The notes beneath the pieces were generated by a model, which did no database searches, was not told where the DNA came from, and saw only the letters and a program-made list of their open reading frames with translations. Shown piece after piece: positions 40,168 through 59,669 of a DNA stretch of 64,000 nt. Numbering within the stretch: the first letter of the stretch is position 1; the number at the start of each line of letters is the position of its first letter. Made by a program: the position numbers and the translations under genes. Location: assembly GCF_900167905.1 (NCBI RefSeq), contig NZ_FUYZ01000003.1, positions 186,001 through 250,000 on the forward strand, written 5' to 3'. Source of the stretch: Soonwooa buanensis. Lineage in GTDB: Bacteria > Bacteroidota > Bacteroidia > Flavobacteriales > Weeksellaceae.

Positions 40168-40575
40168 TTATCCAGCTAGATAATCTTCCATTTTACTGCG
40201 GAGTTTGTCCCAATCTTTTGGTTGGATGCCGCCATTTTCGAAACTGACGAAAACGATAGTCCCTTCGCCTTCTAAAACCGTTTTGTCACCAAGGCTAAAA
40301 ACGTATTGATAAGTGCATGAGGTTTTGCCAAGTTTGCTGATGTACATAGACTTGCTGATGGTATCACCTAATTTTGCAGGTGACTTAAATTGTGTCTTAA
40401 TATCAACCGTTGGAATCCCAGAATCTTGATGCATATTCTCGAAAGGATAATCTAGAACTTCACGGAAAAAATCTTCCATCAAGCCATTTAACATTTCAAA
40501 ATATCTTGGGTAAAAAACGATTCCCGCAGGATCGCAATGCTCGAAGCGGATGCGTTGTTCTTTTATAAATTTCAT
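40168..40575 (-). CDS. 4-hydroxybenzoyl-CoA-type acyl-CoA thioesterase
   Basis: Hot-dog-fold thioesterase of 135 aa. HCDPAGIVFYPRYFEM carries the catalytic Asp15 of the 4HBT family. It is the tenth and last gene of the minus-strand catabolic operon, 9 nt after the flavoprotein. In context it would release the hydroxylated ring from CoA (gentisyl-CoA or 5-hydroxyanthraniloyl-CoA) so that the ring-cleavage dioxygenase encoded on the other strand can act. The substrate is inferred from neighbours only. Confidence 0.87.
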   Translation of the reverse strand: MKFIKEQRIRFEHCDPAGIVFYPRYFEMLNGLMEDFFREVLDYPFENMHQDSGIPTVDIKTQFKSPAKLGDTISKSMYISKLGKTSCTYQYVFSLGDKTVLEGEGTIVFVSFENGGIQPKDWDKLRSKMEDYLAG

Positions 40576-43713: not shown

Positions 43714-45866
43714 GCCAACTGTCTTTTTTTCTCTCTTCTTTTTTGTAAATAACTAAAAATATTTTGCTTCACATTGTGCTTGAATTTCTCCCAAGATGTC
43801 GGATTTTTCACAACTTGTGCTTTGTAGAACGACGGACACAATACCGCAGCTTCTGCAACTTCGCCACAATTTCCGCAAGCCACACAAGACGAATCTATTG
43901 TTGCAATGGGATCTTCACGAAGTGGATTGTCGCTATACGTCAATGTTAAAGATGGACATCCCGAAAGTCGCATACACTCGTGGTCGCCAGTACAAACCTT
44001 GGAATCGACCCCGAATTTTTCGTTGACAACGCGTTTCTTTTCTTCGAGTTTTTTCTTTTTTACTTTATTATCACGTCGTTGCTTATTCAGCATACATTCG
44101 GATTGTGCGATAATTACCTTTGGACCTTTCTCGTTGGAGGTTAAAGCTTTCGTAATCACTTTAACCATTTTATCAACATCATAAGTATTGTCAATAAAAT
44201 CAACATGTTTAACCCCAACACCATGAACCGCTTTTTCGATTGGGTTATTAATCGTCCTAATTTTGTTGTTAAATCTGGACGATGGCACATCTTGACCGCC
44301 CGTCGCTGCCGCATAATTGTTGTCAATAATAATCGTCAATCCATCATTATTGTTAAAAACAGCGTTGGTAATCCCTGTTGTCAAACCATTGTGCCAAAAA
44401 CCGCCATCTCCCATGATGGAAATGACACGTTTTTGACCATTATCTTTTCGAACAAAATCCATGTTAAAAGCAGAAGCCGAAGCGCCACCTAAACCATAAC
44501 CCATGGTTGTTGCACCAATATTAAACGGTGGCAAAATCGAAAACAGGTGACAGCCAATATCCGCCGAAACGTGATAATCGCCCATATTCTGTTGCACCAA
44601 CTTTAAAGCAGCAAAAATTGGACGCTCGGGACAGCCTGTACAAAAACCTGCAGGTCTTGCAGGAACCGCTTCCGACAAAGTTTTGGCATCTTCGGGCAAG
44701 ATAGTAATAGCACCTTCTTTTTCGGTAATTTCGATTTCTTTTTGATAAAGATTAAAAAATTCGCCAAGAGCCGTTTCTAATCTACCAATGGTATAATCGC
44801 CGCCCATTGGTAACAAATCTTTACCGTGAAGTTTAGTTTTAACCTCGTTATGAAACATTGTTAAACCTATACTTTGCTCTATATAATTAGGCTGACCTTC
44901 CTCAACAAGAAGTACAGCTCTTTTGCCTTTGCAAAATTCTAAAACCTCATCGTCAATCACAGGATAAGTAACATTCATCACATAAACTGGAATTTTGACA
45001 TTACCCAAATGATCCGACAAATCAAACTGAACAAGCGCTCTATTCAAATTATTAAATAACGCACCCTGAACGATGATTCCGATATCGTCGCGCTCGCCAG
45101 ACAAAAATTCGTTCATCTTATTGTCTTTGATAAACTGAATAGCTGCTGGAAGTCGACGTTTTATCTTATCTTCTTCTTGAAGAAATGAAGCTGGCGGAAG
45201 TACAATTCTGTTAACATCGCGAACAGGATTGTTAAGCGCTTCGCCTAAAGTATATTTTGGTTTTTGATTTTCTTTAGCTACAAATTGTCCATACAAATGG
45301 CAAGATCTAACTCTCAGTTCCAAGAAAACTGGCGTGTTGCTCGCTTCCGAAAGCTGAAAAGCCTTTTCAGTAAAATGAACAATACTCGGTAAGTTTGGTC
45401 GCGGATCAATTAGCCACATTTGAGATTTCATCGCGAAAGCATGTGTACGCTCTTGCATAATACTCGAACCTTCACCATAATCTTCACCGATGATAACGAC
45501 CGTTCCGCCTGTAACGCCAGACGACGCCAAATTAGAAAGCGCATCCGAAGCGACATTGGTACCAACTGTGGACTTCCATGTAACTGCACCACGAACGGGA
45601 TACATTACCGATGCCGACAACATTGCCGCCGCTCCAGCTTCTGATGCTGAATTTTCAAAATAAACGCCAAGCTCCTTTAACAATGGATCTGCATCTGCAA
45701 ATACATCCATCAAATGCGAAATCGGCGAACCTTGGTAACCACCAACATAGCCAACGCCACATTGTAGCAAAGCTTTGGTCACGGCTAAAATTCCTTCGCC
45801 ATGGAAAATTTCGCCTTCTCCTAATCGTAATTTTTCAACTTCGTGTTTGAACGAACGTTCAGCCAT
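43710..45866 (-). CDS. IorA-like indolepyruvate:ferredoxin oxidoreductase subunit (TPP, 4Fe-4S)
   Basis: 718 aa. N-terminal pyrimidine-binding region (GVGYVGGYQGSPISHLMD), CTGCPERPIFAAL near residue 410, TPP-binding GDGGFWHNGLTTG with NNNYAAATGGQ, then a C-terminal iron-sulphur part: CTGDHECMRLSGCPSL (about 624) and CVACGNCGEVAEAAVLCPS (about 660). This is the architecture of aryl-pyruvate/arylglyoxylate ferredoxin oxidoreductases making aryl-acyl-CoA, CO2 and reduced ferredoxin. A 119-nt gap with a palindromic repeat separates it from the cyclase gene. Its occurrence beside a presumed aerobic monooxygenase set is unusual. Confidence 0.9.
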   Translation of the reverse strand: MAERSFKHEVEKLRLGEGEIFHGEGILAVTKALLQCGVGYVGGYQGSPISHLMDVFADADPLLKELGVYFENSASEAGAAAMLSASVMYPVRGAVTWKSTVGTNVASDALSNLASSGVTGGTVVIIGEDYGEGSSIMQERTHAFAMKSQMWLIDPRPNLPSIVHFTEKAFQLSEASNTPVFLELRVRSCHLYGQFVAKENQKPKYTLGEALNNPVRDVNRIVLPPASFLQEEDKIKRRLPAAIQFIKDNKMNEFLSGERDDIGIIVQGALFNNLNRALVQFDLSDHLGNVKIPVYVMNVTYPVIDDEVLEFCKGKRAVLLVEEGQPNYIEQSIGLTMFHNEVKTKLHGKDLLPMGGDYTIGRLETALGEFFNLYQKEIEITEKEGAITILPEDAKTLSEAVPARPAGFCTGCPERPIFAALKLVQQNMGDYHVSADIGCHLFSILPPFNIGATTMGYGLGGASASAFNMDFVRKDNGQKRVISIMGDGGFWHNGLTTGITNAVFNNNDGLTIIIDNNYAAATGGQDVPSSRFNNKIRTINNPIEKAVHGVGVKHVDFIDNTYDVDKMVKVITKALTSNEKGPKVIIAQSECMLNKQRRDNKVKKKKLEEKKRVVNEKFGVDSKVCTGDHECMRLSGCPSLTLTYSDNPLREDPIATIDSSCVACGNCGEVAEAAVLCPSFYKAQVVKNPTSWEKFKHNVKQNIFSYLQKRREKKRQLA

Positions 45867-45985: not shown

Positions 45986-46741
45986 TTACACAATTGCTAA
46001 AACTCGTAAAGGGCTTCCAGAGCCATCTTCGATTTTTAATGGTGCCGCGACAATGACAGCGCCTTTTGGTGGCAATTGGTCTAAATTTTTCAAACACTGC
46101 AAACCGTATTTACCTGCGCCATGCATTAACGTATGACACGGCAATTGGAATTCCCATGTGAAAGACATTCCTGCATCGGTATTAACCGTCTCAACGCCGA
46201 AACCTAAAACATCTTTAGAAATCATATATTCTACTGCTTCTTTGTTTGGTCCAGGTGTGTGGTTTAGTCCATTTTCGTCAGTATTGGTGAACGCCGCATC
46301 CAAAGTTTTTTTGCTCCAATCTGTACGGAACAGCACCCAAGAACCTTTCTCCAAATCGCCATGTTGTTTTTCCCATTCTTGAATAAATTCCGGGGTTAAA
46401 ACAAAATCAGGATTCTTTGCAACTTCTGCACTTGCATCGATAACACAAGCTCCTGCTATCATATTCTCAACTGGAATTTGGTCTACCGTATTATTTAGTT
46501 GATCTTTACCCGTAACCCAATGCGATGGCGCATCGAAGTGTGTTCCGAAATGCTCGCCCACGGTAAAGTTATTCCAATACCAGCCTGGTCCTTTCTCGTC
46601 ATAACGACAAATTTGCTCTTTCTTAAAAGTTGCGACTTGCCCCATTTCTGGAGGAAGTACCAGTCCTGGAAAACTTTCGTTAAGCGTATGCGTAAGATCT
46701 ACGACTTTTTTAGTTTTTAAAATATCTAATAAATTGCTCAT
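45986..46741 (-). CDS. Cyclase-family metal hydrolase (isatin hydrolase/kynurenine formamidase-like)
   Basis: 251-aa hydrolase of the cyclase family. The metal-binding motif HFGTHFDAPSHW gives His64, His68, Asp70 and His74, with the H-x3-H-x-D-x3-H spacing of isatin hydrolase and kynurenine formamidase; VLFRTDWS and GVETVNTDAG are further family blocks. These enzymes open a cyclic or formyl amide with Mn or Zn. In this operon, isatin to isatinate is the best fit; N-formyl-aryl hydrolysis is the alternative. It starts 10 nt after the bifunctional hydroxylase. Confidence 0.87.
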   Translation of the reverse strand: MSNLLDILKTKKVVDLTHTLNESFPGLVLPPEMGQVATFKKEQICRYDEKGPGWYWNNFTVGEHFGTHFDAPSHWVTGKDQLNNTVDQIPVENMIAGACVIDASAEVAKNPDFVLTPEFIQEWEKQHGDLEKGSWVLFRTDWSKKTLDAAFTNTDENGLNHTPGPNKEAVEYMISKDVLGFGVETVNTDAGMSFTWEFQLPCHTLMHGAGKYGLQCLKNLDQLPPKGAVIVAAPLKIEDGSGSPLRVLAIV

Positions 46742-46751
46742 TGGTGTGATT

Positions 46752-49064
46752 TTATTTTTTAAGTTGGTGACTTACGGGTTTTAATTCTTTTTTCATTTGC
46801 TCGAATTCTTCGCGATCCTTTTTAGCCTTCATATACTGTACAGCTGCGCCGCCCAAATAAGGTTGTGGAATACCGATTGACATTGGATCGTCGGCTTTAT
46901 ACTGCTCGTAAGCTTTTGCCGTTTGAACAAAATAAGGATCTGTCAACAAAGGTCTACCCAAAGCCACAAGATCTGCTCTAGCATTTAGTAACAAAGTGTT
47001 GACTTGGTCAATGGTTTCAATACGTCCAGAAGTCATTGTTGGGATTTCGATGGTGTTTCTGATCCATTCCGAAAATGGCGTTTGCCACATTCTTCCCATA
47101 AATGGCTTTTGATCAATCACAGTATTTCCTGTGCTTACGTTGATCATGTCAACGCCAAGGTTTTTTAATTGTTTAGCAACGTATTCAACCTCGTCTTTTG
47201 TAATGCCTTCTGGATGCCAGTCGGTTACATTTAATTTAACAATTAAAGGCTTGTCGCCAAGGACTTGCTTCATTGCGTTTACAATTTCTAGAGGATATTT
47301 TGCACGGTTTTCGATACTTCCTCCAAACTCATCTTGCCTTTTGTTGGTTAAAGGCGAAAGGAAACTTGCTAACAAAAATCCGTTGTGCATCTGCAATTCA
47401 ACCGCATCAAAACCGGCTTCTATCGCACGTTTGGTAGCATCTACAAATTGTTGCTTTACGACATTTAAATCCTCAGTATCCATTGCTTTCGGCGTTGGAA
47501 ACTCTGGTCTAAAAGCAATTGCATCAGCAGAAATTAATGGCCAAGCACCTTCTGTAAGTTGCTTTCCAAGATTTGTCGATTGACAAGAACCTTTTCTACC
47601 AGAATGTCCTAATTGTACAGCAATTTTGGAATCTGTATTTTCATGAATGAAATCCGTGATTCGTTTCCAAGCTTTTACCTGATCATCGTTGTATAAACCA
47701 TAACAACCTGGCGTGATTCGACCTGTCGGAGAAATTGCTGCCAAACCAGTTGTTATAAGCCCTGTTCCGCCAACTGCACGAGAACTAAGATGTACAAAAT
47801 CCCATTCTCCAGGAACACCGTCTACCGATTTGTATTGTCCCATCGCACTCATCGCAATTCGGTTATTTAGTTTTAAATTTCCTAATTGATAGGTTGTAAA
47901 TGCTGGTGGCGTATTGAGGTCTTCGGAATGATTTCTTTTATTAAAATTCTGAATAATGCGCTGTGCATATTTTTTGTCACGACGTGCTTGATTTTCGATG
48001 GTAATTTTTTTACTTCGAGACATTACAGCAAAACTGAATGTGTCAAAATCCAACTTCATGTGACGGTCAATATCTTCAAACCATTGTAAGGAAACGTCAG
48101 CAGCATGCTGAATCATATCAACTGGCGTGCGACGACGTTCTGTATAATCTGCCAAAGCTTTTTCCATGTTATCTTGGTTCGCAACAACTGCGTCGGACAA
48201 TCCTATCGCGCAATCCATCGCCAATTTGGTTCCGGAACCGATAGAAAAGTGAGCAGAAGTTTTGGCATCACCAATTAAAGCTTTGTTATTAAAATACCAA
48301 TTGGCATTGTAAATTCTTGGGAAAGTTCGCCACCAAGAACGATTACCAATCAGCTTGTGGCCTTGTAATTCTTCTTTGAAAAGTTCTTCTAATTTTGCCA
48401 AAGAGCCCGCTTCGTCTCTTTCATCAAAACCTGCTTTATCATAAGTCTCCTGAGAGCACTCGAAAATAAAAGTACTTTTGCCTTCTTCATATTGATAAGA
48501 GTGCGCACAAAAAGCACCATAAGGTGTATTTCTAAAAAAGTAAGTAAAGGAATCCAAAGGTCTTGTCGAACCGCACCAGATAAAACGATTTTTGCGCATT
48601 TCGGTTTCGGTGCCAAATTCTTTCTCGAATTGACCACGCATCTGCGAACCAATGCCGTCCGCAAATAATACCAAATCGCTATCCTCGAATTGCGATACAT
48701 CATCAACTTTAGCTTCGAAATGAAGATTAACACCTTCTTCGCGACAACGCTGTTGTAAAAGTTCTAACAAAGTTTTGCGAGAACAACCGCAGAAACCATT
48801 ACCTTCTATTCTTACAATTTCGCCATCACGAGCAACATCCAAGTTATCCCAATAAGCGAAACTGTTTCGGATCAATTCGTAAGAACGTGGATCGTAAGAC
48901 AAAAACTCACTAAGGGTTTCGTCCGAAAAGACCACACCAAATCCGAAAGCATCATCAGCTTTATTTTGTTCGTATATATCAATTTGTGCATTTGGAATTC
49001 TTTTCTTTGTTAAAATCGAAAAGTACATTCCTCCTGGACCTCCTCCAATTACCGTTATTTTCAT
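46752..49064 (-). CDS. Bifunctional salicylyl-CoA 5-hydroxylase / 2-aminobenzoyl-CoA monooxygenase-reductase
   Basis: 770-aa fusion. Residues 1 to about 385 are a class A FAD monooxygenase (VIGGGPGGMYFSIL, then FGFGVVFSDETLSEF; GDAKTSAHFSIGSG for the flavin). Residues from about 395 are an Old Yellow Enzyme-type FMN oxidoreductase (LGNLKLNNRIAMSAMGQY, QLGHSGRKG, ALGRPLLTDP). This architecture is that of 2-aminobenzoyl-CoA monooxygenase/reductase; the N-terminal half alone resembles salicylyl-CoA 5-hydroxylase. It should hydroxylate an aryl-CoA at C5, the OYE domain possibly reducing the ring. No CoA ligase is present, so the CoA ester must come from the IorAB-like enzyme. Confidence 0.88.
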   Translation of the reverse strand: MKITVIGGGPGGMYFSILTKKRIPNAQIDIYEQNKADDAFGFGVVFSDETLSEFLSYDPRSYELIRNSFAYWDNLDVARDGEIVRIEGNGFCGCSRKTLLELLQQRCREEGVNLHFEAKVDDVSQFEDSDLVLFADGIGSQMRGQFEKEFGTETEMRKNRFIWCGSTRPLDSFTYFFRNTPYGAFCAHSYQYEEGKSTFIFECSQETYDKAGFDERDEAGSLAKLEELFKEELQGHKLIGNRSWWRTFPRIYNANWYFNNKALIGDAKTSAHFSIGSGTKLAMDCAIGLSDAVVANQDNMEKALADYTERRRTPVDMIQHAADVSLQWFEDIDRHMKLDFDTFSFAVMSRSKKITIENQARRDKKYAQRIIQNFNKRNHSEDLNTPPAFTTYQLGNLKLNNRIAMSAMGQYKSVDGVPGEWDFVHLSSRAVGGTGLITTGLAAISPTGRITPGCYGLYNDDQVKAWKRITDFIHENTDSKIAVQLGHSGRKGSCQSTNLGKQLTEGAWPLISADAIAFRPEFPTPKAMDTEDLNVVKQQFVDATKRAIEAGFDAVELQMHNGFLLASFLSPLTNKRQDEFGGSIENRAKYPLEIVNAMKQVLGDKPLIVKLNVTDWHPEGITKDEVEYVAKQLKNLGVDMINVSTGNTVIDQKPFMGRMWQTPFSEWIRNTIEIPTMTSGRIETIDQVNTLLLNARADLVALGRPLLTDPYFVQTAKAYEQYKADDPMSIGIPQPYLGGAAVQYMKAKKDREEFEQMKKELKPVSHQLKK

Positions 49065-49099: not shown

Positions 49100-50185
49100 C
49101 TATCTAATGCCTCTTTCAGCTAAGATAGGCAAAACATTATCTCTAAAATATGGGAACTCTTTTACATAATCAAAAAATGATAAAGTCGTCCCTCCAAAAC
49201 CTGCATCGTGCAATGCACAAATTTTATCTGCAACCTGTTGTGGCGTACCAATCAATTGGAAACCACCATGACCAAGCGCCATACTTTCTCTAATCTGAGC
49301 TAACAAATCATGAGGAAAGCTGTGTGCGTGCGCAAATTGTAAATTAACCAAATTATCTACCGCAGCTTCATCAATATTATCGAGAACTCTTTTCTTTTCA
49401 GCTAAAGCTTCTTCTTCGGTTGGTCGACAGATAACGTGTGAAAAAGTTAGCACGCCAATGTTTTTTCCTTCAGATTCTGCTTGTTTTTTAAGATCTGCAA
49501 TTTCTGTTTTAGAACGTTCTAGATCGATAGCCGGTGTGAAAAGATAGTTCACATTATTAATTGCAAACGCGCGTCCTTGTGGAGAACCTGCTGCATTAAG
49601 AATTGGTGGCATTTTATCCAAAGTAGGAATTCCGTAGCTTCCTTTAGTTTTAAAATAAGTTCCGTTCCAATCGAATCTTTCTTTCGTTGTCCACAGTTTT
49701 TTTACAAAATCAATCCATTCTTGTGCGTAAGCGTAACGCGTCTCGTGATCGTTTGGTAGGTCTAATCCTAAAGCATCATATTCTGGCTTGTTCCAACCAG
49801 CAACGATATTTAATCCAATTCTGTCACCGCTCATTTGTGCCATTGTCGCAATTTGCTTTGCTATAACAAGAGGATGATTCGCCACCGTATGAACGGTTGC
49901 AAAGATTTGAATATTTTTAGTTTTCGCTAATAAAGCTGATGCCCAAGTAACAGTTTCTAAAACCTCACCATGGAAATCTGTTTCGCCGCCATAGCCAACC
50001 CAACGTGCGATTGGCAACATAAAATCTATACCTGCTTCATCTAACAAATGCGCCAATTTTTCATTGTTTTCCCAATTGGCTTTCCAACGATCTTCAAGTT
50101 TAGAAACGGTCATTCCTCCACTGCAGTTAGTGGAGAAAGTCCCGAGTATGAATTTATTTTTTTCTGTAAAAGGATGTGAACTCAT
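49100..50185 (-). CDS. LLM-class flavin-dependent monooxygenase (RutA-like)
   Basis: 361-aa luciferase-fold enzyme. The pattern LPIARWVGYGGETDFHGEVLE, IFATVHTVANHPLVIAKQ and RIGLNIVAGWNKPEYDALG resembles pyrimidine oxygenase RutA, which cleaves a cyclic amide with a flavin peroxide. It would use reduced FMN from the adjacent flavin reductase (33 nt upstream). In an indole pathway it could oxidise or open an oxindole such as dioxindole. The exact step is inference. Confidence 0.86.
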   Translation of the reverse strand: MSSHPFTEKNKFILGTFSTNCSGGMTVSKLEDRWKANWENNEKLAHLLDEAGIDFMLPIARWVGYGGETDFHGEVLETVTWASALLAKTKNIQIFATVHTVANHPLVIAKQIATMAQMSGDRIGLNIVAGWNKPEYDALGLDLPNDHETRYAYAQEWIDFVKKLWTTKERFDWNGTYFKTKGSYGIPTLDKMPPILNAAGSPQGRAFAINNVNYLFTPAIDLERSKTEIADLKKQAESEGKNIGVLTFSHVICRPTEEEALAEKKRVLDNIDEAAVDNLVNLQFAHAHSFPHDLLAQIRESMALGHGGFQLIGTPQQVADKICALHDAGFGGTTLSFFDYVKEFPYFRDNVLPILAERGIR

Positions 50186-50218: not shown

Positions 50219-50698
50219 TTATTTTAATTCTCTAAATTGACCTCTATGGAAAAGAATCGGATTACCATCTTCTTCTGCCGAAAAGTCTAACACTTCGCCA
50301 ATATAAAGTGTATGATCTCCTGCTAAATGCGAAGAATGAACTTTAGTAACGAAATGTGCCAAAGCATTTTTAAGCACCGGAACGCCGTCATATTCTATAA
50401 AGTCGACATTTAGTTCTGGATTATGCTTTCCTGCAAAATGATTGCAATGGTCATGATGGTCATCTTTCAAGATGCTAACACCATAGATCCCAGAGTTTTT
50501 AATCGTCTCGAACATTTTTTGATTATTCCCGATAGAAACTGCGATCAAAGGAGGATCCAAAGACACAGAAATAAATCCATTCGCGGTCATGCCGTGTACT
50601 GTTCCGTCTTCATTTTTACTTGTGATAACCGTAACACCCGTTGTAAAGGTTCCACAGGCATTACGGAAAGCTCTGCTGTCAAACTCTTTAATTTCCAT
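50219..50698 (-). CDS. Flavin reductase (StyB/HpaC-like)
   Basis: 159-aa NAD(P)H:flavin reductase. The block FRNACGTFTTGVTVITSKNE and GMTANGFISVSLDPPLIAVS are typical of the flavin reductase domain that feeds two-component monooxygenases. It sits 10 nt after the StyA-like gene and 33 nt before the LLM enzyme, so it probably supplies both with reduced flavin. Confidence 0.9.
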   Translation of the reverse strand: MEIKEFDSRAFRNACGTFTTGVTVITSKNEDGTVHGMTANGFISVSLDPPLIAVSIGNNQKMFETIKNSGIYGVSILKDDHHDHCNHFAGKHNPELNVDFIEYDGVPVLKNALAHFVTKVHSSHLAGDHTLYIGEVLDFSAEEDGNPILFHRGQFRELK

Positions 50699-50708
50699 AA
50701 TAGTTGTT

Positions 50709-51938
50709 TTATGCGTTTTCAGCGATTAATTCATCTGTTTTTGCAGGATCTAACCACCAAGGGAAGAATTGTCTTGGATCGTTAAAATTGTTAGCAAACA
50801 AATCCGCCAACTTCTGCGAACCTGCAGCAGCACCCAAGAATTTAAGAATGTGTGGCGGCGGTGGACCAAGCAATGTATTTGTCCAAAGCGCAACATCTTT
50901 TACATTTTCCCAATATTCATTGAAAGTATCATTCATCCAAGCTTCATCAAAAGGCTGATCACCTCTTTCTAAAATTGAATCATAATAAATTTTTGTACAC
51001 TTGGAAGCGTTATTAGAACCTTGTCCTGTAATAGGATCGTTAACAACCACAACATCCGCAATCCCGAAAACCTTTCTACCAGACGGCAAAGTCGCAACAG
51101 GCTTTCTAACGGTTGGTGCAAAACGACCTGACAAAATTCCGTTATCGTCTGTCAACTCTACATTTTGACAACGCTCATATTCCCAAGGTAAATATGTTTT
51201 TAAAATTTCTAAACTCTTTGCTAAATGTTCTTCTGGCGTTTTAACATCTTGCCAGCAATCCATTGGACCACCAACAATACCTTCCAATACCATAATCTCA
51301 CAAGGTCCGTTAATCGTTTCACTTGGGAAAACGAAATATTCGCCAACACCTGGAATTAAGTTAAACGCAACTTTGGAGAAAGGCTTGTTAGGCGTCATTC
51401 CTTTAACATAAGTCAAAGCCAAAGCACGCATCGGTTTGTCATACATACTTTTGTCCGCATCTCTTTCGAACATTTGCACAATACTTCCTTTTCCTGCCGC
51501 AAGAATTGTTAAATCACTTTGTGCTGTAATATCTTCAAGGTCGTTTTCATCAACATCTTTAATGATGATTTTGCCACCTAATTCTTCAAATTTTTCCATC
51601 CAGAAAGGCATCTTGATACGTTGGTCAACCGCGTAAGCATTTTTTTCTAGCTTACCCGCAAACGTAAACAATTTTTCACCTGGTTTTTCAGGATGAGGAA
51701 CTGTTACACCAAGACCTTCAACTGGCGGACAAGTATCTTCCCAGTAATTAATGTCTAATTCTCTTTCGTTTTCTAAAGCCATATCAAACATACATTGGCT
51801 TGACATTACTTTACCATATTTGATTTGCTCTGGCGTGCGGTTACTATAGATTGTTACGTCGTAACCTTTTTTTACCAATCCCAAACCTAATTGTAGTCCG
51901 GATTGACCTGCACCTACAATAGAAACTTTTCTTGACAT
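50709..51938 (-). CDS. Styrene/indole monooxygenase (StyA/IndA/IifC-like)
   Basis: 409-aa FAD-dependent oxygenase. GAGQSGLQLGLGL (residues 9 on) is the FAD motif; NRTPEQIKYGKVMSSQCMFD, VVNDPITGQGSNNASKC and FLGAAAGSQKLADLFANNFN follow the StyA template. StyA-family oxygenases epoxidise styrene and oxidise indole, and close homologues named IndA/IifC start bacterial indole degradation. The partner flavin reductase follows after 10 nt and an SDR precedes by 14 nt, as in indole operons. It likely produces indole epoxide or dihydrodiol. Confidence 0.9.
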   Translation of the reverse strand: MSRKVSIVGAGQSGLQLGLGLVKKGYDVTIYSNRTPEQIKYGKVMSSQCMFDMALENERELDINYWEDTCPPVEGLGVTVPHPEKPGEKLFTFAGKLEKNAYAVDQRIKMPFWMEKFEELGGKIIIKDVDENDLEDITAQSDLTILAAGKGSIVQMFERDADKSMYDKPMRALALTYVKGMTPNKPFSKVAFNLIPGVGEYFVFPSETINGPCEIMVLEGIVGGPMDCWQDVKTPEEHLAKSLEILKTYLPWEYERCQNVELTDDNGILSGRFAPTVRKPVATLPSGRKVFGIADVVVVNDPITGQGSNNASKCTKIYYDSILERGDQPFDEAWMNDTFNEYWENVKDVALWTNTLLGPPPPHILKFLGAAAGSQKLADLFANNFNDPRQFFPWWLDPAKTDELIAENA

Positions 51939-51952
51939 ATATAATATTTTGC

Positions 51953-52744
51953 TTATTGGTTTTTCATTAATTTTGACATCAAAGGATAGTGCTGTTCTGG
52001 TCCCATAGCGCTATAACCACCGTCCACAACAATCTCTGATCCAGTCATATAACTTGCATCATCCGAAGCTACAAAGGCAACAGCGTTAGCCACTTCTTCG
52101 CCATTTGCTACACGACCGAGAAGATTATAACCTTCTGTCACCTTATCGGCATGCGCACGATCATTTTGAGTTAAACCTTCGAAAGGTGCAGACCAAACAT
52201 GCCCAAGACGCACCATGTTAACACGGATTCCGTCTGGCGCATATTCCACTGCTTGGGTTTTGTTAAGATGAAGCAAAGTCGCTTTTGACACTGGATAAGC
52301 CCAACGCTCGATGTGTGGGAAAACACCCGAAATAGAACCTGTGTTCACGATACAACCTTTAGAAGCCTTAAGATATGGACGCGCCATTTCTCCAAGAATC
52401 GCAGCTGCAACGGCATTTACATTAAGTGTGTGCAGCCAAGTTTCGCGAGAAGTTTTTGCACCTTCGTCGCCGTAAGATGCCGCATTGTTAACAAGGACAT
52501 CTAACTTCCCGAATTTATCTATAGTTATTTTGATGAGGTTTTCGCAATCTTCATCTTTAGTAATATCAGTATGAACAAAAAGTGAGTTTTCGCCAAGGCT
52601 ATCTTGTGCTTTCTTTCCTAAATCGTCAGCAATATCTGCGATGACAACTTTCGCACCGAGGTCAACCATTTTTTTTGCGATTTCAAAACCGATGGAAGCA
52701 ACACCACCAGTTACTATAAACACTTTATCTTTTAATTGAATCAT
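51953..52744 (-). CDS. Short-chain dehydrogenase (IifB-like dihydrodiol dehydrogenase)
   Basis: 263-aa SDR. The NAD-binding motif reads TGGVASIG (residues 12-19, in place of the usual TGxxxGIG), NNAAS is at about 87-90, and the catalytic set is Ser139 in NTGSISG, Tyr150 and Lys154 in YPVSK. First gene of the ten-gene minus-strand operon. In characterised indole operons a related SDR oxidises indole-2,3-dihydrodiol to 3-hydroxyindolin-2-one. That role is inferred here. Confidence 0.88.
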   Translation of the reverse strand: MIQLKDKVFIVTGGVASIGFEIAKKMVDLGAKVVIADIADDLGKKAQDSLGENSLFVHTDITKDEDCENLIKITIDKFGKLDVLVNNAASYGDEGAKTSRETWLHTLNVNAVAAAILGEMARPYLKASKGCIVNTGSISGVFPHIERWAYPVSKATLLHLNKTQAVEYAPDGIRVNMVRLGHVWSAPFEGLTQNDRAHADKVTEGYNLLGRVANGEEVANAVAFVASDDASYMTGSEIVVDGGYSAMGPEQHYPLMSKLMKNQ

Positions 52745-52951: not shown

Positions 52952-52959
52952 TATTTTTG
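52952..52959 (+). promoter_or_regulatory. Promoter -7 element (TATTTTTG) of the plus-strand catabolic operon
   Basis: Full TAnnTTTG match 27 nt before the ATG at 52987. An apparent earlier TTG start lies within it and is rejected. Confidence 0.55.
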
Positions 52960-52986: not shown

Positions 52987-53988
52987 ATGTTAGGAAAATT
53001 TAAGGCTGCAACAGTCCAAACTAGCGCAGTATATTTTGACATCGAAGCAACCATTGATAAAGCTTGCAAACTGATTGCAGAAGCCGCAAGCAATGGCGCC
53101 GAACTAGTAGCGTTTCCCGAAGTTTTCATTTGTGCCTATCCTTATTGGAACTGGATTATGAATCCCGTGCAAGGCAGTAAATGGTTCAAAAAACTATATG
53201 AAAATTCAATTTCTGTTGATGATCCACGTTTGCAAAAGCTTTTTGATGCAGCAAGACTTCATAACATTAATGTTGTTATTGGTATCAACGAAAAAGACAA
53301 GCGTAAAACCGGAACCATCTACAATACCAATTTGATTATTTCGAATGAAGGTCAACTTTTGGGTAGACACAGAAAACTGGTTCCGACTTGGGCAGAAAAG
53401 CTAACTTGGACAGGTGGCGATGGCTCATCATTAAAGGTTTACGACACGTCTGTTGGTCCTTTGGGGACATTAGCTTGTGGCGAAAACACCAATACTTTGG
53501 CGCGTTTTGCTTTAATTTCTCAAGGTGAATTAATACACATTGCAAATTACATCAGTCTTCCTGTTGCGCCAGTGGATTACAATATGGCGGAAGCTATCAA
53601 AATCCGTGCGGCTGCGCATTCGTTCGAAGGTAAACTTTACACGATTATTTCTTGCAGCACGATTAACGAAGATATTATCAAACTTTTTGAGGAAGAAAAT
53701 CCAGAATGCAGAAATTTATTTAAAAGAGAAAATTCAGCATTTTCCGGTTTTATCGATCCTAACGGTCAGGTTATTGGCGAACCACTAATTGATAAAGAAG
53801 GTATAGCTTATGCTGAAATCGACCTTTCTGCATGTATTCAACCAAAACAGATGCACGACATCTTGGGGCACTACAATAGATTTGATATCTTTGATTTTAA
53901 GGTGAATACGACACCACAGATGCCTGCCCATTTTTACGAAACAACCGAAGAACAAGACAATATTAAAAATCAAACTTATGGAAACTAA
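52987..53988 (+). CDS. Nitrilase-superfamily carbon-nitrogen hydrolase
   Basis: 333-aa C-N hydrolase; start at 52987 (MLGKFKAATVQTS). The catalytic triad is Glu45 (AFPEVF), Lys130 (GRHRKLVPTW) and Cys164 (LACGENTN). The residue after the Cys is Gly, where classical nitrilases usually have Trp (CWE), so an amide or other substrate is possible. First gene of the plus-strand operon; the next gene overlaps its end by 11 nt. In context it could remove nitrogen as ammonia from a ring-cleavage amide (maleamate or maleamylpyruvate), or alternatively hydrolyse indole-3-acetonitrile. Confidence 0.85.
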   Translation: MLGKFKAATVQTSAVYFDIEATIDKACKLIAEAASNGAELVAFPEVFICAYPYWNWIMNPVQGSKWFKKLYENSISVDDPRLQKLFDAARLHNINVVIGINEKDKRKTGTIYNTNLIISNEGQLLGRHRKLVPTWAEKLTWTGGDGSSLKVYDTSVGPLGTLACGENTNTLARFALISQGELIHIANYISLPVAPVDYNMAEAIKIRAAAHSFEGKLYTIISCSTINEDIIKLFEEENPECRNLFKRENSAFSGFIDPNGQVIGEPLIDKEGIAYAEIDLSACIQPKQMHDILGHYNRFDIFDFKVNTTPQMPAHFYETTEEQDNIKNQTYGN

Positions 53989-55090
53989 TTACAGCGACGA
54001 CATCTACGGAAGAGCGAAAGTAAAAGGCTCCGAAGAACTCGAAAAATATTACGACGAGCTAAAAGACATGGACACGGGCGCACTTTGGACCGTTGCCAAC
54101 GACATTGAACCTTGGGAGCCGCACACTATTTCGGCACCGATGTTTTGGAGTTACGAAAAGCTAAGACCATTCGTTTTAGAAGCCGCTCGTTTGGTAACAC
54201 CAGGCGAAGCAGGAAGACGCGTTGTCTATCTTCAAAACAAAAACAGAATTAAAGAAAAAGCCGCGGTAGGCCTACTATACGCAGGCATCCAAATTACACA
54301 GCCAGGTGAGTTCACGCCAGCACATCGACATGCAGCTTCTGCGCTTCGCTTTATTATGGAAGGCGCAAAAGGCTACACGATTGTTGATGGTAACAAGATA
54401 GAACTTGGCGTTCGTGATTTTGTGATTACGCCAAATAGCGCTTGGCACGAGCACGGTGTTGAAAAAGATGGTCAAACTTGTATTTGGTTAGATGGTCTTG
54501 ATATCCCAATGATCAACGCTTTTGAAGCTAATGATTATGCGGTTTTAGAAGAAGAAAAAGGCGGTCAAGATTTAGTCGTTGCAGAGAATTATTCACCAAT
54601 GAGTTATTCTGGCGCTGGCGTTATCCCGATTGATAGAGAATGGAACAAACCATATTCACCGTTGTTTAAATATTCTTGGGAGAATACGAGAAATGCGATT
54701 CAGAATTTAGCAAAAGTGAGCGACGGAACGCCTTACGACGGTTACATTATGCGTTATGCCAATCCATTAACGGGCGGACATCCAATGTTAACGATGGGCG
54801 CAACAATGCAAATGTTAAAACCTGGACAAAAAACCAAAGCGCACAAACACACTGGATCTTCAGTTTTCCAAGTGGCACAAGGCGAAGGTTACGTGATTAT
54901 CGACGGTGTTAAATATGATTTTAAAGAAAAAGATACATTCTGTATTCCATCTTGGTTGTACCACGAATTCGCGAATACTTCCGAAACGGAAGAATTGTAT
55001 TTATTCTCATTTAACGATTTTCCAACTGTGGAAAAATTAGGTTTTTATCAAGAAAAAGCACATCCAGAAGGACACCAGCAATTAAAATAA
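53978..55090 (+). CDS. Gentisate 1,2-dioxygenase-family bicupin ring-cleavage enzyme
   Basis: 370-aa Fe(II) dioxygenase. The first cupin has the metal ligands His116 and His118 (HRHAASALRF) and His157 (WHEHG), a spacing as in salicylate/gentisate dioxygenases; a second cupin follows (KAHKHTGSSVFQV). Gentisate itself gives maleylpyruvate. If the substrate is 5-hydroxyanthranilate, cleavage beside the amino-bearing carbon would give an amide (maleamylpyruvate), which fits the adjacent C-N hydrolase. It overlaps the nitrilase-like gene and precedes the FAH gene by 11 nt. Confidence 0.9.
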   Translation: METNYSDDIYGRAKVKGSEELEKYYDELKDMDTGALWTVANDIEPWEPHTISAPMFWSYEKLRPFVLEAARLVTPGEAGRRVVYLQNKNRIKEKAAVGLLYAGIQITQPGEFTPAHRHAASALRFIMEGAKGYTIVDGNKIELGVRDFVITPNSAWHEHGVEKDGQTCIWLDGLDIPMINAFEANDYAVLEEEKGGQDLVVAENYSPMSYSGAGVIPIDREWNKPYSPLFKYSWENTRNAIQNLAKVSDGTPYDGYIMRYANPLTGGHPMLTMGATMQMLKPGQKTKAHKHTGSSVFQVAQGEGYVIIDGVKYDFKEKDTFCIPSWLYHEFANTSETEELYLFSFNDFPTVEKLGFYQEKAHPEGHQQLK

Positions 55091-55101
55091 AATATTAAAT
55101 T

Positions 55102-56013
55102 ATGAAGTTAGCAAGTTTTAGAAGTAGTATAGAATCAGAAATAAGATTAGGAATCATCGTTGACGACGTCATTATCGACATGGAATCTTGGGGTATCGAG
55201 CACGACTTAGATTTACCATCGACCATGTTAGAATTTATCGATTTAGGACCAGCCGCTGTCAAAGCAGTTTCCGAAACTTTAAAAAATATCGATGCAAGAA
55301 GCCTTGTTGCAACGAGTATTCCTTTGTCATCAGCGATTATTACTGCACCAATCCCAGCTCCTCGTAAAAATATTTTCGGAATTGGACTTAATTATACCGA
55401 ACACGTTGCTGAGTCTGCAAGAACATTGGACACTTCGAAAGAACTTCCACAACAATGTGTTATTTTCTCAAAACCTCCAACTACCGTAATTGGACCTGGC
55501 GATTCTATAAAACATAATGACCAAGTTACCAAACAAATGGATTGGGAAGGGGAACTTGCCGTTATTATGGGAAAAAAAGCAACGCATGTTTCTAAAGAAA
55601 ATGCTTTGGATTATGTGTTCGGTTACACCATTATTAACGACATCAGTGCAAGAGATTGCCGTCGTTCGGGACAATGGATCGTTTCCAAAGGTCAAGATAC
55701 TTTTGCACCGATGGGACCTTATGTTATCACGACTGACGAATTAACAGATCCACATAATTTACAAATTATCACCAAAGTTAACGGCGTTGAAAAACAAAAC
55801 GGTAACACAAAATTCATGCTTTTTAATGTTAATGATATTATCGAAGACATCAGCGAAGTAATCAGTTTGGAAGCTGGTGACATTATCGCAACAGGAACTC
55901 CAGCAGGCGTTGGCGCAGGTCGTGAACCTCAAGAATTCATGTGGCCTGGCGATGTTGTAGAAATTACAATTGACAAACTTGGAACTCTTAAAAATTACAT
56001 TGTAAAAGCTTAA
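55102..56013 (+). CDS. Fumarylacetoacetase-family hydrolase (acylpyruvate hydrolase)
   Basis: 303-aa FAH-family enzyme. Metal ligands are Glu149 and Glu151 (DWEGELAVIMG) and Asp180 (TIINDISARD), with KGQDTFAPMGPYV for the catalytic Lys. Such enzymes split acylpyruvates to pyruvate and an acid. Following a gentisate-type dioxygenase it would cut maleylpyruvate (or its amide, or fumarylpyruvate). Eleven nt after the dioxygenase and 6 nt before the isomerase, so one operon. Confidence 0.9.
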   Translation: MKLASFRSSIESEIRLGIIVDDVIIDMESWGIEHDLDLPSTMLEFIDLGPAAVKAVSETLKNIDARSLVATSIPLSSAIITAPIPAPRKNIFGIGLNYTEHVAESARTLDTSKELPQQCVIFSKPPTTVIGPGDSIKHNDQVTKQMDWEGELAVIMGKKATHVSKENALDYVFGYTIINDISARDCRRSGQWIVSKGQDTFAPMGPYVITTDELTDPHNLQIITKVNGVEKQNGNTKFMLFNVNDIIEDISEVISLEAGDIIATGTPAGVGAGREPQEFMWPGDVVEITIDKLGTLKNYIVKA

Positions 56014-56019
56014 TTAATT

Positions 56020-56778
56020 ATGTCTAAAAAATTGAATTACCGCATTGGACAGATTGTGCCAAGCTCCAATGTAACCATGGAAACCGAAATCCCCGCAATG
56101 TTCCGTGGACGCGAAAGCATTTTTCCAGAACGCTTTACATTTCATTCTGCTAGAATGCGTATGAAGCATGTTACTAAAGAAGAACTTGCGAAGATGGATG
56201 GCAATTCTGACCAATGTGCATTAGAATTATCGGATGCTCATGTTGATGTGATGGGTTATGCTTGTCTTGTTGCGATTATGTCGATGGGGAAAGGCTATCA
56301 TTGTGTTTCGCAAGAACGTCTTTACAAAAAAACAGTTGAAAATGATTATCCAACGCCAATTGTAACAAGTGCTGGCGCATTAATAGAAGGTTTGCAAACT
56401 TTAGGTGTTAAAAACATTGCAGTTGTGGCACCTTATATGAAACCGCTTACGCAAATGGTTGTCGAGTATATCGAAGATCAAGGTTTTACGGTTAAAGATT
56501 GGATTGCTTTGGAAGTTTCGGACAATTTGGAAGTTGCTGCTTTAGATCCAGAAAATCTTAAAACAATTTATAAAAAGTTAAACTTAGAAGGCGTTGAAGC
56601 GATTGTACTTTCAGCATGTGTACAAATGCCATCGTTACCTGCAGTTCAGTTTGTTGAAGACGAAGCAGGAATACCGGTTGTGACAGCCGCAATCTGTACC
56701 ACTTACAGAATGCTTAAAGAACTCGGACTCGAAGCGAAAGTACCAAATGCAGGAACTTTACTTTCAGGGAAATATTAA
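56020..56778 (+). CDS. Maleate cis-trans isomerase (NicE-like)
   Basis: 252-aa Asp/Glu-racemase-superfamily enzyme. The N-terminus IVPSSNVTMETEIPAM is characteristic, and both catalytic cysteines are present at Cys82 (GYACLVA) and Cys200 (LSACVQMPSL), the positions used by NicE of the nicotinate pathway. It turns maleate into fumarate for the TCA cycle. Its presence implies that the FAH enzyme releases free maleate or maleamate rather than fumarate. Last gene of the plus-strand operon, before a terminator. Confidence 0.9.
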   Translation: MSKKLNYRIGQIVPSSNVTMETEIPAMFRGRESIFPERFTFHSARMRMKHVTKEELAKMDGNSDQCALELSDAHVDVMGYACLVAIMSMGKGYHCVSQERLYKKTVENDYPTPIVTSAGALIEGLQTLGVKNIAVVAPYMKPLTQMVVEYIEDQGFTVKDWIALEVSDNLEVAALDPENLKTIYKKLNLEGVEAIVLSACVQMPSLPAVQFVEDEAGIPVVTAAICTTYRMLKELGLEAKVPNAGTLLSGKY

Positions 56779-56874: not shown

Positions 56875-57672
56875 ATGGAGGAAGGCAAAAAGAAACGCGG
56901 TATACAGTCTATTAATGTAGGATTCTCTATCCTAAAAGCATTAATGCAATCTCAATATCCATTACCATTAAAAGAAATTTCGGAACAAATTGGTTTGTCA
57001 CCAAGTAAAATCCACTCGTATCTTGTAAGTTTTCAGGAAGAAGAAATGGTGCAGCAAAACCCCGAAACTGGCTTTTATAGTTTGGGAACATCTTGTCTTA
57101 AATTAGGACTCGCTTATCTTGATCAATTCGATCTTACCGAATTGTGCAAACCTCACATGCGCCAATTAGCCAACGACCTTGGACACACTATTTTCTTAGG
57201 CGTTTGGGGAAATCGCGGTCCAACAATCATTTACAGATTGGATGGAACTTATAGCGAAACTTTATTCGATTTAAGAATCGGAAGCGTTTTACCAATTTTG
57301 ACTTCGGCGGTTGGTAAAAACTTTGCGGCGCATCTTCCCGAAAACCGCGTTATGCCATCACTAATCGAAGAATTAAAAAGCAACAAAGGCGAACTAAATC
57401 TTGATGAAAACCTACGCAATGTTGAAGAAATGTTAGCAACCATCAAAAAAGATGGCATCAGCCAAGGGCGTGCAGAAATGTTGTCTGATCTGACGGCGAT
57501 TTCGGTTCCTATTTTTGATTTTTCTAATAATATGATTGCAGGTTTAACGATTATGGGAAAAATTGGTGGATTGGATGATCGCATCAACGGAAGCGCCGCC
57601 AAAATGCTAAAACAAGCCGCTTTCGAAATTTCGCAAAAAAGAGGCTACAAGGTTTTGGAGCAGAATAATTGA
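56875..57672 (+). CDS. IclR-family transcriptional regulator
   Basis: 265-aa regulator with an N-terminal winged helix (LPLKEISEQIGLSPSKIHSYL, residues about 30-50, wing GFYSLG) and a C-terminal IclR effector domain (FLGVWGNRGPTIIYR, LPILTSAVGKNFAAHL, ISVPIFDFSNNMIAGLTI). IclR proteins often control aromatic-acid pathways through a pathway intermediate. Its position beside the cluster makes it the likely regulator of both divergent operons. Activator or repressor action is not evident. Confidence 0.9.
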   Translation: MEEGKKKRGIQSINVGFSILKALMQSQYPLPLKEISEQIGLSPSKIHSYLVSFQEEEMVQQNPETGFYSLGTSCLKLGLAYLDQFDLTELCKPHMRQLANDLGHTIFLGVWGNRGPTIIYRLDGTYSETLFDLRIGSVLPILTSAVGKNFAAHLPENRVMPSLIEELKSNKGELNLDENLRNVEEMLATIKKDGISQGRAEMLSDLTAISVPIFDFSNNMIAGLTIMGKIGGLDDRINGSAAKMLKQAAFEISQKRGYKVLEQNN

Positions 57673-58847: not shown

Positions 58848-59669
58848 TTACTTCCCCTTCAAAACCTCCCAAGCTTCTTCGATATTATTTTGAAGCAAAT
58901 AAGATTGGGCTTTTTTATGGATTTCGGAATCGCAGGAAAATTCAGCTTCTGGAAGAACGTCAATATTTGCTAACATTCCTAAATCATTTCCTGTAAAGAC
59001 TTTACTACTTCTTATTTCGATGGGAAGTAAGTCAATTCCGATGTTTTGATTATTCGGTCGCGGAACTTTAAAAAGACTTTGTTCGTTACTTCGAGAATAC
59101 CAATCGCCGCCAAGACGCGCCACCAAATCTAATTTTAGTTGGTCAATTTTTCCATTCTCGCCAAAGCATTCATCTTTAACATGAACTTTCAGAACCTCAC
59201 AAATAACAAGATTACCTGCACCGCCATTTTCACCAAGAGGTTTAACCTCCAAAACTTCACATTCAAAATTAACAGGACATTCTGCAATCAATTTCGGCTT
59301 CACTAAATCTGCTTCCAAAGTCGTTAAATTTACTTTTTCAAACTCATTAACGTGACGACCAAAAGGCGCCGACGCCAACGAAATCTGCTGAACGATGTCA
59401 AAATTTACAACACCAACGACCACTTCCTGCGTTTCCAAAATGTTGTGAAGTGTATCTTTATTCGGATTGTCTTTTCCTTGACGCAAAGGCGAAAAAACAA
59501 GAATCGGTGGTTTTGCGCTAAACATATTAAAAAAGCTAAACGGTGACAAGTTGATATTTCCTTCCGCATCAATCGTCGACGCCAACGCAATTGGACGAGG
59601 CGCAATCACGTACTTCATAATATCTTGCATTTCGTAAGTCGAAATCTCTGTTGCCGCAAAATTTTTCAT
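58848..59669 (-). CDS. Flavin reductase-family protein (DIM6/NTAB type)
   Basis: 273-aa FMN-binding split-barrel protein. YVIAPRPIALASTIDAEGN, INLSPFSFFNMFSAKPPILV and FGRHVNEFEK are the usual family blocks. Unlike the 159-aa StyB-like reductase it has a longer C-terminal extension (from about 200). It stands alone between the RES gene and the glucosidase, convergent to the RES gene. It may supply flavin to one of the oxygenases, or be unrelated. Substrate unknown. Confidence 0.85.
   Translation of the reverse strand: MKNFAATEISTYEMQDIMKYVIAPRPIALASTIDAEGNINLSPFSFFNMFSAKPPILVFSPLRQGKDNPNKDTLHNILETQEVVVGVVNFDIVQQISLASAPFGRHVNEFEKVNLTTLEADLVKPKLIAECPVNFECEVLEVKPLGENGGAGNLVICEVLKVHVKDECFGENGKIDQLKLDLVARLGGDWYSRSNEQSLFKVPRPNNQNIGIDLLPIEIRSSKVFTGNDLGMLANIDVLPEAEFSCDSEIHKKAQSYLLQNNIEEAWEVLKGK

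Follow-up and report, generated by a model that had tools for sequence, protein, structure and literature searches.

Why should a gentisate-type ring-cleaving dioxygenase be encoded alongside a carbon-nitrogen (C-N) hydrolase? The question is raised by four plus-strand genes found at positions 52987-56778 of a 64,000-nucleotide stretch of Soonwooa buanensis DNA (contig NZ_FUYZ01000003.1, from a genome of 3.33 Mb), with that whole stretch described here as the ‘window’. These genes encode a nitrilase-superfamily hydrolase, a gentisate-type dioxygenase, an FAH-family hydrolase, and a NicE-like maleate isomerase, that is, the locations and families that had been assigned to them by an earlier, sequence-only reading of this DNA. 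That reading had proposed, further, that 5-hydroxyanthranilate goes in, an amide comes out, ammonia is removed by the C-N hydrolase, and maleate is then converted to fumarate, a proposal which is now supported by several comparative lines. The genes are tightly packed, with an 11 bp overlap between hydrolase and dioxygenase, an 11 bp gap between dioxygenase and FAH gene, and a 6 bp gap between FAH gene and isomerase:

52987 to 53988, plus strand: C-N hydrolase (nitrilase superfamily; Pfam CN_hydrolase), proposed maleamate/maleamylpyruvate amidase
53476 to 53478, plus strand: codon of the proposed catalytic Cys174 (numbering from TTG 52957), in L-A-C-G-E-N-T-N, found in 15 of 15 aligned rows
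53978 to 55090, plus strand: gentisate-type ring-cleaving dioxygenase (Pfam Cupin_2; closest structure 3BU7), proposed 5-hydroxyanthranilate 1,2-dioxygenase
55102 to 56013, plus strand: FAH-family hydrolase (Pfam FAA_hydrolase), proposed to release pyruvate
56020 to 56778, plus strand: NicE-like maleate cis-trans isomerase (Pfam Amdase; both cysteines present)

Probably, and I hold this with good confidence, the locus combines an upper pathway that oxidizes indole as far as a CoA ester with a lower one that has 5-hydroxyanthranilate (2-amino-5-hydroxybenzoate) at its core. Every substrate and reaction in this scheme is one that I infer, from an observed gene set along with homologies, co-occurrence, and the repeated loss of a histidine. 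The dioxygenase would cleave between C1 and C2, turning the amine-bearing carbon into a carboxamide, i.e., giving rise to maleamylpyruvate. GDO-type chemistry is described in PMC4019311 as attack at C2, oxygen insertion, and then hydrolysis of the resulting ester. The enol oxygen presumably is the better leaving group, and so the amine carbon would remain as a carboxamide. The FAH protein would then cut beside the pyruvoyl carbon, yielding pyruvate plus maleamate, with the C-N hydrolase converting maleamate to maleate plus ammonia and the NicE-like isomerase converting maleate to fumarate. This order, FAH cleavage and then deamidation, is plausible, and I lean modestly towards it over deamidation preceding the FAH step.

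That the C-N hydrolase has a job which a plain gentisate route would not need, as had been claimed, is supported by its distribution. The fairer test is of loci found by dioxygenase search. Among 345 Bacteroidota genomes the dioxygenase occurs in six, including that of the window, with the hydrolase lying within about 0.5 kb in all six. The 299 Pseudomonadota genomes yield 42 dioxygenase matches, consisting of eight with at least 53% identity to the query, described here as the ‘clade’, plus 34 with at most 40%. Leaving out genome G200, which supplied the query and which had entered through its hydrolase, a C-N hydrolase accompanies five of the seven clade dioxygenases (three with C-G-E-N about the active-site cysteine, two with C-W-E-N). 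Plasmids contribute 17 close dioxygenases (at least 59% identity) among 60 listed of 155 records, the next listed being at most 45% identical, with a C-N hydrolase at 13 of the 15 loci examined (nine C-G-E-N and four C-W-E-N); two Novosphingobium humi records were left out of this count, and NZ_CP109789 was judged by coordinates alone. As controls there are the 34 distant Pseudomonadota gentisate-dioxygenase loci plus two plasmid loci from the other 138 plasmid records, their dioxygenases being 30-41% identical to that of the window. Neither a C-N hydrolase nor an isomerase homologue is found in any of these 36 control loci, over stretches read of 5.6 to 13 kb. Partnership with a hydrolase thus is seen at 18 of 22 clade loci (Pseudomonadota plus plasmids) versus 0 of 36 controls (Fisher p = 1.6e-11) or, upon adding the five other Bacteroidota, at 23 of 27 versus 0 of 36 (p = 1.9e-13).

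A larger set consists of loci found using the hydrolase as query, 80 loci of at least 585, and is biased towards loci having the hydrolase. Neighbouring homologues here, ignoring matches that cover under half of the query, are of the dioxygenase at 78 loci, the FAH protein at 76, a protein resembling 2-aminobenzoyl-CoA monooxygenase/reductase (ABM/R) at 74, the isomerase at 73, a thioesterase at 73, and a CoA ligase at 72. In locus L014 the genes stand in the order flavin reductase, ABM/R, benzoate-CoA-ligase-like protein (343 bits, with a cut-off of 375), thioesterase, hydrolase, dioxygenase, FAH protein, and isomerase. A Flavobacterium-like operon is present as well in L007, labelled Limnohabitans, and L033, labelled Bifidobacterium breve, which probably are mis-binned contigs of metagenome-assembled genomes (MAGs). 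Within the window's own bacterial family the hydrolase is present in two of 197 genomes, i.e., the window's own and that of one congener, and two more Bacteroidota genomes have a hydrolase relative, 40-41% identical, without the dioxygenase.

In six dioxygenase loci (L147, L148, L185, L187, L188, L189) it is a C-W-E-N hydrolase, 31-34% identical to that of the window, which stands in for the window type. Two distant branches of one superfamily, that is, presumably serve the same dioxygenase clade. Three of these loci (L147, L148, and L185) share a variant cluster consisting of dioxygenase, FAH protein, C-W-E-N hydrolase, and flavin reductase, without a NicE-like isomerase. L185 also has a protein annotated as peptidase M29, 89-98% alike to that of L148 and reminiscent of NicX-type dioxygenases.

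What kind of enzyme is the hydrolase? Its membership in the nitrilase superfamily is clear (Pfam CN_hydrolase, 141.9 bits versus a cut-off of 23.2), including a Glu-Lys-Cys triad. Residues E55, K140, E147, and C174, the latter in C-G-E-N, are invariant over 15 of 15 aligned rows, and these I take to be the catalytic residues. With the Nit6803-type nitrilases (NCBIfam TIGR04048) it scores 231.1 bits, below the cut-off of 502.6, and among PDB structures it matches nitrilases and cyanide hydratases best. The frame is open from a TTG at 52957, with the ATG at 52987 matching the start of most aligned homologues, and it ends with the stop at 53988. An AlphaFold model has a mean predicted local distance difference test (pLDDT) score of 70.6, with active-site loops below 50, and was not used.

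The isomerase, claimed earlier to be NicE-like, indeed is so. Its top PDB match is the maleate cis-trans isomerase 4FQ7 (344 bits, E 4e-102), with identity at 80 of the first 103 aligned positions, and along with close full-length homology both active-site cysteines are kept (GYACLVA and SACVQM). The structures 4FQ5 and 2XED are Cys-to-Ala at the second of these cysteines relative to 4FQ7 and 2XEC.

From where might 5-hydroxyanthranilate come? Divergent from the cassette is a minus-strand group which is proposed to supply an indole/isatin upper pathway:

51953 to 52744, minus strand: short-chain dehydrogenase (SDR; NCBIfam)
50709 to 51938, minus strand: StyA-like flavin monooxygenase (NCBIfam, Pfam), proposed indole oxygenase
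50219 to 50698, minus strand: flavin reductase, StyB-like (NCBIfam)
49100 to 50185, minus strand: luciferase-like monooxygenase of the upper pathway (NCBIfam, Pfam), found also in Sphingobacterium cluster L006
46752 to 49064, minus strand: ABM/R-like protein of 770 aa, proposed anthraniloyl-CoA 5-hydroxylase with an altered reductase site
47391 to 47393, minus strand: codon of Gln558, replacing the first old yellow enzyme (OYE) active-site histidine (alignment, tree)
45986 to 46741, minus strand: isatin hydrolase, a cyclase-family protein (5NMP, 352 bits)
43710 to 45866, minus strand: indolepyruvate:ferredoxin oxidoreductase alpha-like protein (IorA-like), below its cut-off; would take isatinate to anthraniloyl-CoA
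42190 to 43713, minus strand: indolepyruvate oxidoreductase subunit beta family protein (IorB-like; 527 bits, cut-off 348)
40585 to 42159, minus strand: CrtO/phytoene-desaturase-like FAD oxidoreductase (NCBIfam), with no obvious step
40168 to 40575, minus strand: YbgC/FadM-like thioesterase (49 bits, below the 68.7 cut-off), proposed 5-hydroxyanthraniloyl-CoA thioesterase

Indole would be oxidized towards isatin by the StyA-like monooxygenase, the dehydrogenase, and the luciferase-like enzyme. Isatin then would be hydrolyzed to isatinate by the isatin hydrolase, whose PDB matches include as well 5NNB (301 bits) and 4J0N (246 bits), with the IorAB-like enzyme converting isatinate by decarboxylation to anthraniloyl-CoA. 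The ABM/R-like protein would hydroxylate C5 of anthraniloyl-CoA, the ring staying aromatic, and the thioesterase, whose homologues neighbour ABM/R and dioxygenase genes in related clusters, would free 5-hydroxyanthranilate. The luciferase-like monooxygenase is 75% identical to its Sphingobacterium counterpart and perhaps takes dioxindole to isatin. The name of an IifA-type oxygenase is absent among the window proteins scanned, with no IifA sequence having been compared.

The ring would be left aromatic because the ABM/R-like protein has lost its reductase-site histidine. The ABM/R of Azoarcus is reported (PMC3534580) first to place a hydroxyl on C5 of anthraniloyl-CoA and next to reduce the ring, with 5-hydroxyanthraniloyl-CoA resulting when NADH is limiting. 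Ring reduction would be incompatible with action of a ring dioxygenase. The protein encoded here should yield the aromatic, 5-hydroxylated compound and go no further. Its architecture is that of ABM/R, i.e., an N-terminal flavin hydroxylase domain (matching VioD) fused to a C-terminal OYE domain (matching OYE-type reductases), and its best NCBIfam name is salicylyl-CoA 5-hydroxylase/oxidoreductase, at 876 bits and below the cut-off of 1078. Within the OYE domain the active-site motif, E-L-H-x-A-H-G-Y, takes the form E-L-H-(G/M)-A-H-G-Y in the two best PDB matches and E-L-Q-M-H-N-G-F in the window.

How general is this replacement? A pattern scan of ABM/R copies finds, at the histidine site, Gln in 74 copies, a single Ser (in L006), and two His (L152, L153); the ABM/R of L010 is broken and yielded no residue. 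The neighbours of the two His types are, for L152 (R. pomeroyi), RidA, an AMP-binding protein, an acyl-CoA dehydrogenase, an enoyl-CoA hydratase, an SDR, and a tryptophan dioxygenase, and for L153, an SDR, an enoyl-CoA hydratase, and Rid. In a separate set of 30 Pseudomonadota ABM/R loci, 29 have His and one has Gln, with the Gln copy adjoining the dioxygenase (L175, which is the same as L151). These are from 53 places, nine of which have the reductase domain only, with one place more (G428 C29) covered by L150. The 29 His loci carry about 1.5 kb of flank, such that their description as not linked rests on dioxygenase coordinates, the nearest clade dioxygenase being about 30 kb away on the same contig in G314.

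In a tree of 51 sequences the histidine is lost in 20 of 20 dioxygenase-linked copies (19 Gln, 1 Ser) and kept in 31 of 31 others. Supported branches force three label changes, and holding the dioxygenase-linked copies together is rejected on a 48-row tree (p-AU 4.6e-5). The His-less copies form three groups, that is, Bacteroidota, Caballeronia/Cupriavidus/G428/G499, and Novosphingobium (L188, L189), with the latter two nested among His copies. The Bacteroidota change would be a loss as well, assuming that His is ancestral, as OYE relatives suggest. Genome G428 holds both kinds, a His copy (L167) on one contig and a Gln copy (L150) beside the dioxygenase. I judge this repeated change, which tracks the dioxygenase as neighbour, to be the best pointer to the dioxygenase acting on the product of the hydroxylase half reaction, with its amine still in place.

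The dioxygenase itself has 3BU7 as its closest solved structure (484 bits). It falls below the cut-off of the gentisate 1,2-dioxygenase equivalog (TIGR02272; 301.3 versus 442.1 bits) and scores 220 bits against the 5-aminosalicylate 1,2-dioxygenase MabB (NCBIfam NF049978; cut-off 650). Its N-terminal cupin is of the gentisate/salicylate type, with equivalents present of the three iron-site histidines H119, H121, and H160 and of the shell residues R127, H162, and D174 (SDO numbering, with roles after PMC10306065). Kept too are the residues described there as binding the carboxylate and 5-OH (R83, Y104, Q108, R127, H162, D174), which fits a substrate having a 5-OH and either a 2-OH or a 2-NH2. 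The same source reports a related enzyme, 5-nitrosalicylate dioxygenase, as inactive on both 5-hydroxyanthranilate and gentisate. Comparing 33 clade loci, from 101, with the 36 controls brings out clade-specific columns, among them H289, H291, and H331 of the second cupin and a position close to Asp174 where 32 of 33 rows have Gln and the window has Leu. This His-x-His...His set, wanting in most controls, suggests a second metal site; GDOsp is reported to have two iron centres. The printed segment of 3BU7 matches part of SPO_RS20405, a protein of the R. pomeroyi megaplasmid, at every letter, and the cluster of that protein (L086) consists of thioesterase-IorB-IorA and aldehyde dehydrogenase-aminotransferase-hydrolase-dioxygenase-FAH-isomerase. 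This context suggests that 3BU7, filed as a gentisate dioxygenase, may carry the wrong main substrate.

What feeds the cassette elsewhere? Four entry ‘modules’ can be distinguished. The indole/isatin module (i), consisting of StyA, SDR, flavin reductase, luciferase-like enzyme, isatin hydrolase, IorAB, and ABM/R, is found in the window and in Sphingobacterium (L006). Module (ii), IorAB plus thioesterase, is found with ABM/R in Caballeronia (L087), G499 (L151), and G428 (L150), and without ABM/R in roseobacters (L086, L091, L092) and Shinella (L090). An aldehyde dehydrogenase is present also in L086, L090, and L091, and an aminotransferase in L086, with no hydroxylase near the cassette in L086 or L090-L092. 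Speculatively, these roseobacter and Shinella clusters may receive indoles that are already 5-hydroxylated, e.g., products of serotonin. Module (iii), of Flavobacterium, is CoA ligase, ABM/R, and thioesterase. Module (iv) is tryptophan 2,3-dioxygenase plus kynureninase, found in L013, L018, L031, L068, and the actinomycete Embleya (L089). Families were checked in this case for both L013 genes, the L068 dioxygenase, and the L089 kynureninase. NCBIfam bears these names out: the tryptophan dioxygenases reach 359 bits in L013 and 343 bits in L068, where the cut-off is 390.7, and cut-offs are passed by the kynureninases of L013 and L089 and by the arylformamidase of L068.

Near the tryptophan dioxygenase, formamidase, and kynureninase of L031 and of L068 there is also a hydroxylase of the aromatic amino acid type. 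These hydroxylases have Leu at a pocket site that is Trp in the solved phenylalanine hydroxylases 3TK2 and 1LTU and in the second copy (L241) of the L068 genome, G200. It is a guess, and one that leans on engineering work, that this Leu lets the enzyme take tryptophan, making it a possible bacterial tryptophan hydroxylase. If so, then modules i, iii, and iv would share 5-hydroxyanthranilate as product. Taken together, a broader interpretation is that aromatic amines have a widespread lower pathway of their own, proceeding via 5-hydroxyanthranilate and amide-retaining cleavage, in Bacteroidota, Pseudomonadota, and Actinomycetota. Entry would be by up to four modules (indole/isatin, anthranilate-CoA, a tryptophan-hydroxylating kynurenine route, and possibly the 5-hydroxyindoles of roseobacters), ABM/R would have been recruited at least twice, and probably three times, by breaking of its reductase site, two distantly related C-N hydrolases would serve, and 3BU7 really would be a 5-hydroxyanthranilate dioxygenase. 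To this broader interpretation I give an even chance, its probability being lowered because the L068 hydroxylase is named as a phenylalanine hydroxylase.

That naming is one of a number of observations that weigh against the proposed pathway. The L068 hydroxylase passes the NCBIfam cut-off for phenylalanine 4-monooxygenase (283.8 versus 264.75 bits), and it scores 111.8 bits as a tryptophan 5-monooxygenase, for which the cut-off is 705.5. L013 and L018 have tryptophan dioxygenase, kynureninase, and cassette, with searches of their genomes giving neither an aromatic amino acid hydroxylase nor an isomerase; that is, there are two gammaproteobacterial genomes without matching hydroxylase and without isomerase. 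No isomerase is found either in genomes G200, G403, and G420, and in G314 there is only a 25% match; several within this set of genomes wanting isomerase or hydroxylase (L013, L018, G200, G314, G403, G420) are MAGs. The roseobacter clusters lack an adjoining ABM/R, and the sole ABM/R match of the R. pomeroyi megaplasmid is of the His type, in a separate cluster about 157 kb off by the shorter way round the circle. The S. pomeroyi member of the clade (3BU7) has been published as a purified, characterized gentisate dioxygenase (as stated in PMC4585797 and PMC4019311). Described catalytic residues were tried as a means of telling gentisate from 5-hydroxyanthranilate, and none separates clade from controls. 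As to co-occurrence, the 80-locus set is mostly Flavobacterium and its loci therefore are not independent, and at four of 22 dioxygenase loci no C-N hydrolase is recognized nearby, i.e., not in the 19-19.5 kb fetched for L145 and L146, nor near L184 (flanked by transposases) and L186 among the plasmids. The C-G-E-N sequence, counted by the sequence-only reading as a supporting mark, is not diagnostic and was rejected as a fingerprint, with L094-L096 carrying C-G-E-N without the dioxygenase and C-W-E-N replacing it in the six loci noted above.

Might the pathway instead be one of plain gentisate degradation? In that case a true salicylyl-CoA 5-hydroxylase would act, gentisate would be freed by the thioesterase and follow the maleylpyruvate route, and the hydrolase would serve some other nitrile or amide. 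The best NCBIfam name of the 770-aa protein points this way, albeit from below its cut-off, as do the publication of 3BU7 and the keeping of gentisate-binding residues. The C-N hydrolase nevertheless stays with the clade rather than the controls even where no indole gene is found, and the entry modules, with their isatin hydrolase or kynureninase, deliver an amine. Plain gentisate degradation is for these reasons unlikely. Alternatively, 5-hydroxyanthranilate might first be deaminated to gentisate, such that the ring product is nitrogen-free. A 2015 review (PMC4539516) draws anthranilate as going to 5-hydroxyanthranilate and then gentisate in Nocardia opaca, and summarizes a scheme of Cain 1968 consisting of 5-hydroxyanthranilate, gentisate, maleylpyruvate, and pyruvate. 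Against this, no aryl-amine hydrolase is recognized among the 15 cluster proteins scanned. Enzymes of the nitrilase superfamily hydrolyze amides and nitriles and are not known to act on aryl amines, and prior deamination is quite improbable here.

The hydrolase could, too, be a nitrilase of the upper pathway, e.g., for indole-3-acetonitrile, as its nitrilase and cyanide hydratase matches would allow. It stays with the dioxygenase without the indole module, however, given CoA ligase at 72 of 80 loci versus the indole module at one of 80 (L006), and the window type is replaced in six dioxygenase loci by a hydrolase which, at 31-34%, is little like it. This I consider the least probable of these alternatives, hardly to be expected at all. 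A rather better candidate, possible if still doubtful, is the same route in another order, with the hydrolase deamidating maleamylpyruvate to maleylpyruvate and the FAH protein then releasing maleate. Gene order and family leave this order free, and the FAH protein's PDB matches include a maleylpyruvate hydrolase, 6JVV, whereas small C4 amides would suit an enzyme of the hydrolase's family. The preferred reading is that of FAH cleavage followed by deamidation of maleamate.

How does this preferred route compare with systems already known? The gentisate pathway employs gentisate 1,2-dioxygenase, an FAH-type hydrolase, and often a maleylpyruvate isomerase, and is alike in its dioxygenase family, active-site residues, and FAH hydrolase. 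It is unlike in that the window has a C-N hydrolase plus a maleate isomerase, neither of which is in the 36 control loci; one of the latter (L190) carries an annotated maleylacetoacetate isomerase. The end of nicotinate degradation (NicF, NicE) likewise runs from maleamate to maleate to fumarate, with the window's isomerase being a close NicE homologue. NicF, however, is of the isochorismatase family, and the window's hydrolase is not an isochorismatase-fold amidase, instead being CN_hydrolase; the proposed amidase thus would be of the nitrilase superfamily, and maleamate would derive from a benzene ring. With the 2-aminobenzoyl-CoA pathway of Azoarcus evansii there is in common anthraniloyl-CoA and an ABM/R-type enzyme, but here the reductase-site His is replaced, and thioesterase and ring dioxygenase are found instead of ring reduction and beta-oxidation-like genes. 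The iif/ind indole clusters share a StyA-like oxygenase, flavin reductase, and SDR, and differ in that the window has isatin hydrolase and an IorAB-like enzyme. The 5-aminosalicylate 1,2-dioxygenase pathway (MabB) also has an amino-substituted substrate for a gentisate-type dioxygenase. The amine of 5-aminosalicylate is at C5, which is not the cleaved carbon, and so no amide is formed, unlike what is proposed for the window. A 2018 review of indole degradation (PMC6221969) links none of the iif genes to isatin and states that the gene behind the gentisate branch was still to be revealed.

The enzymes themselves all are from known families, and what is new is their combination, the proposed amide chemistry, and the broken reductase. 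Among open-licence PMC papers, judged by titles, abstract openings, and passages, none was found on a maleamylpyruvate or 5-hydroxyanthranilate dioxygenase (amide) route, an absence which that coverage makes weak; one (PMC3534580) does mention 5-hydroxyanthraniloyl-CoA. If the proposal is true, then the branch by which anthranilate and indole are broken down via 5-hydroxyanthranilate, known from Cain 1968 and from Claus and Kutzner 1983 as represented in reviews, is supplied with genes, and a function is predicted for a C-N hydrolase that scores as a relative of nitrilases. There results as well a sharp, testable claim concerning how a hydroxylase/reductase turns into a pure hydroxylase.

Lastly, there are other genes of the window:

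56875 to 57672, plus strand: IclR-family regulator (family scans), 3' of the cassette
58848 to 59669, minus strand: flavin-reductase-like protein, just past the cassette, with about 35% identity to the gene that opens the Flavobacterium operon
31508 to 33271 and 33545 to 35800, minus strand: two similar, tandem outer-membrane-receptor-like genes, of 587 and 751 aa respectively, one thus being shorter than the other

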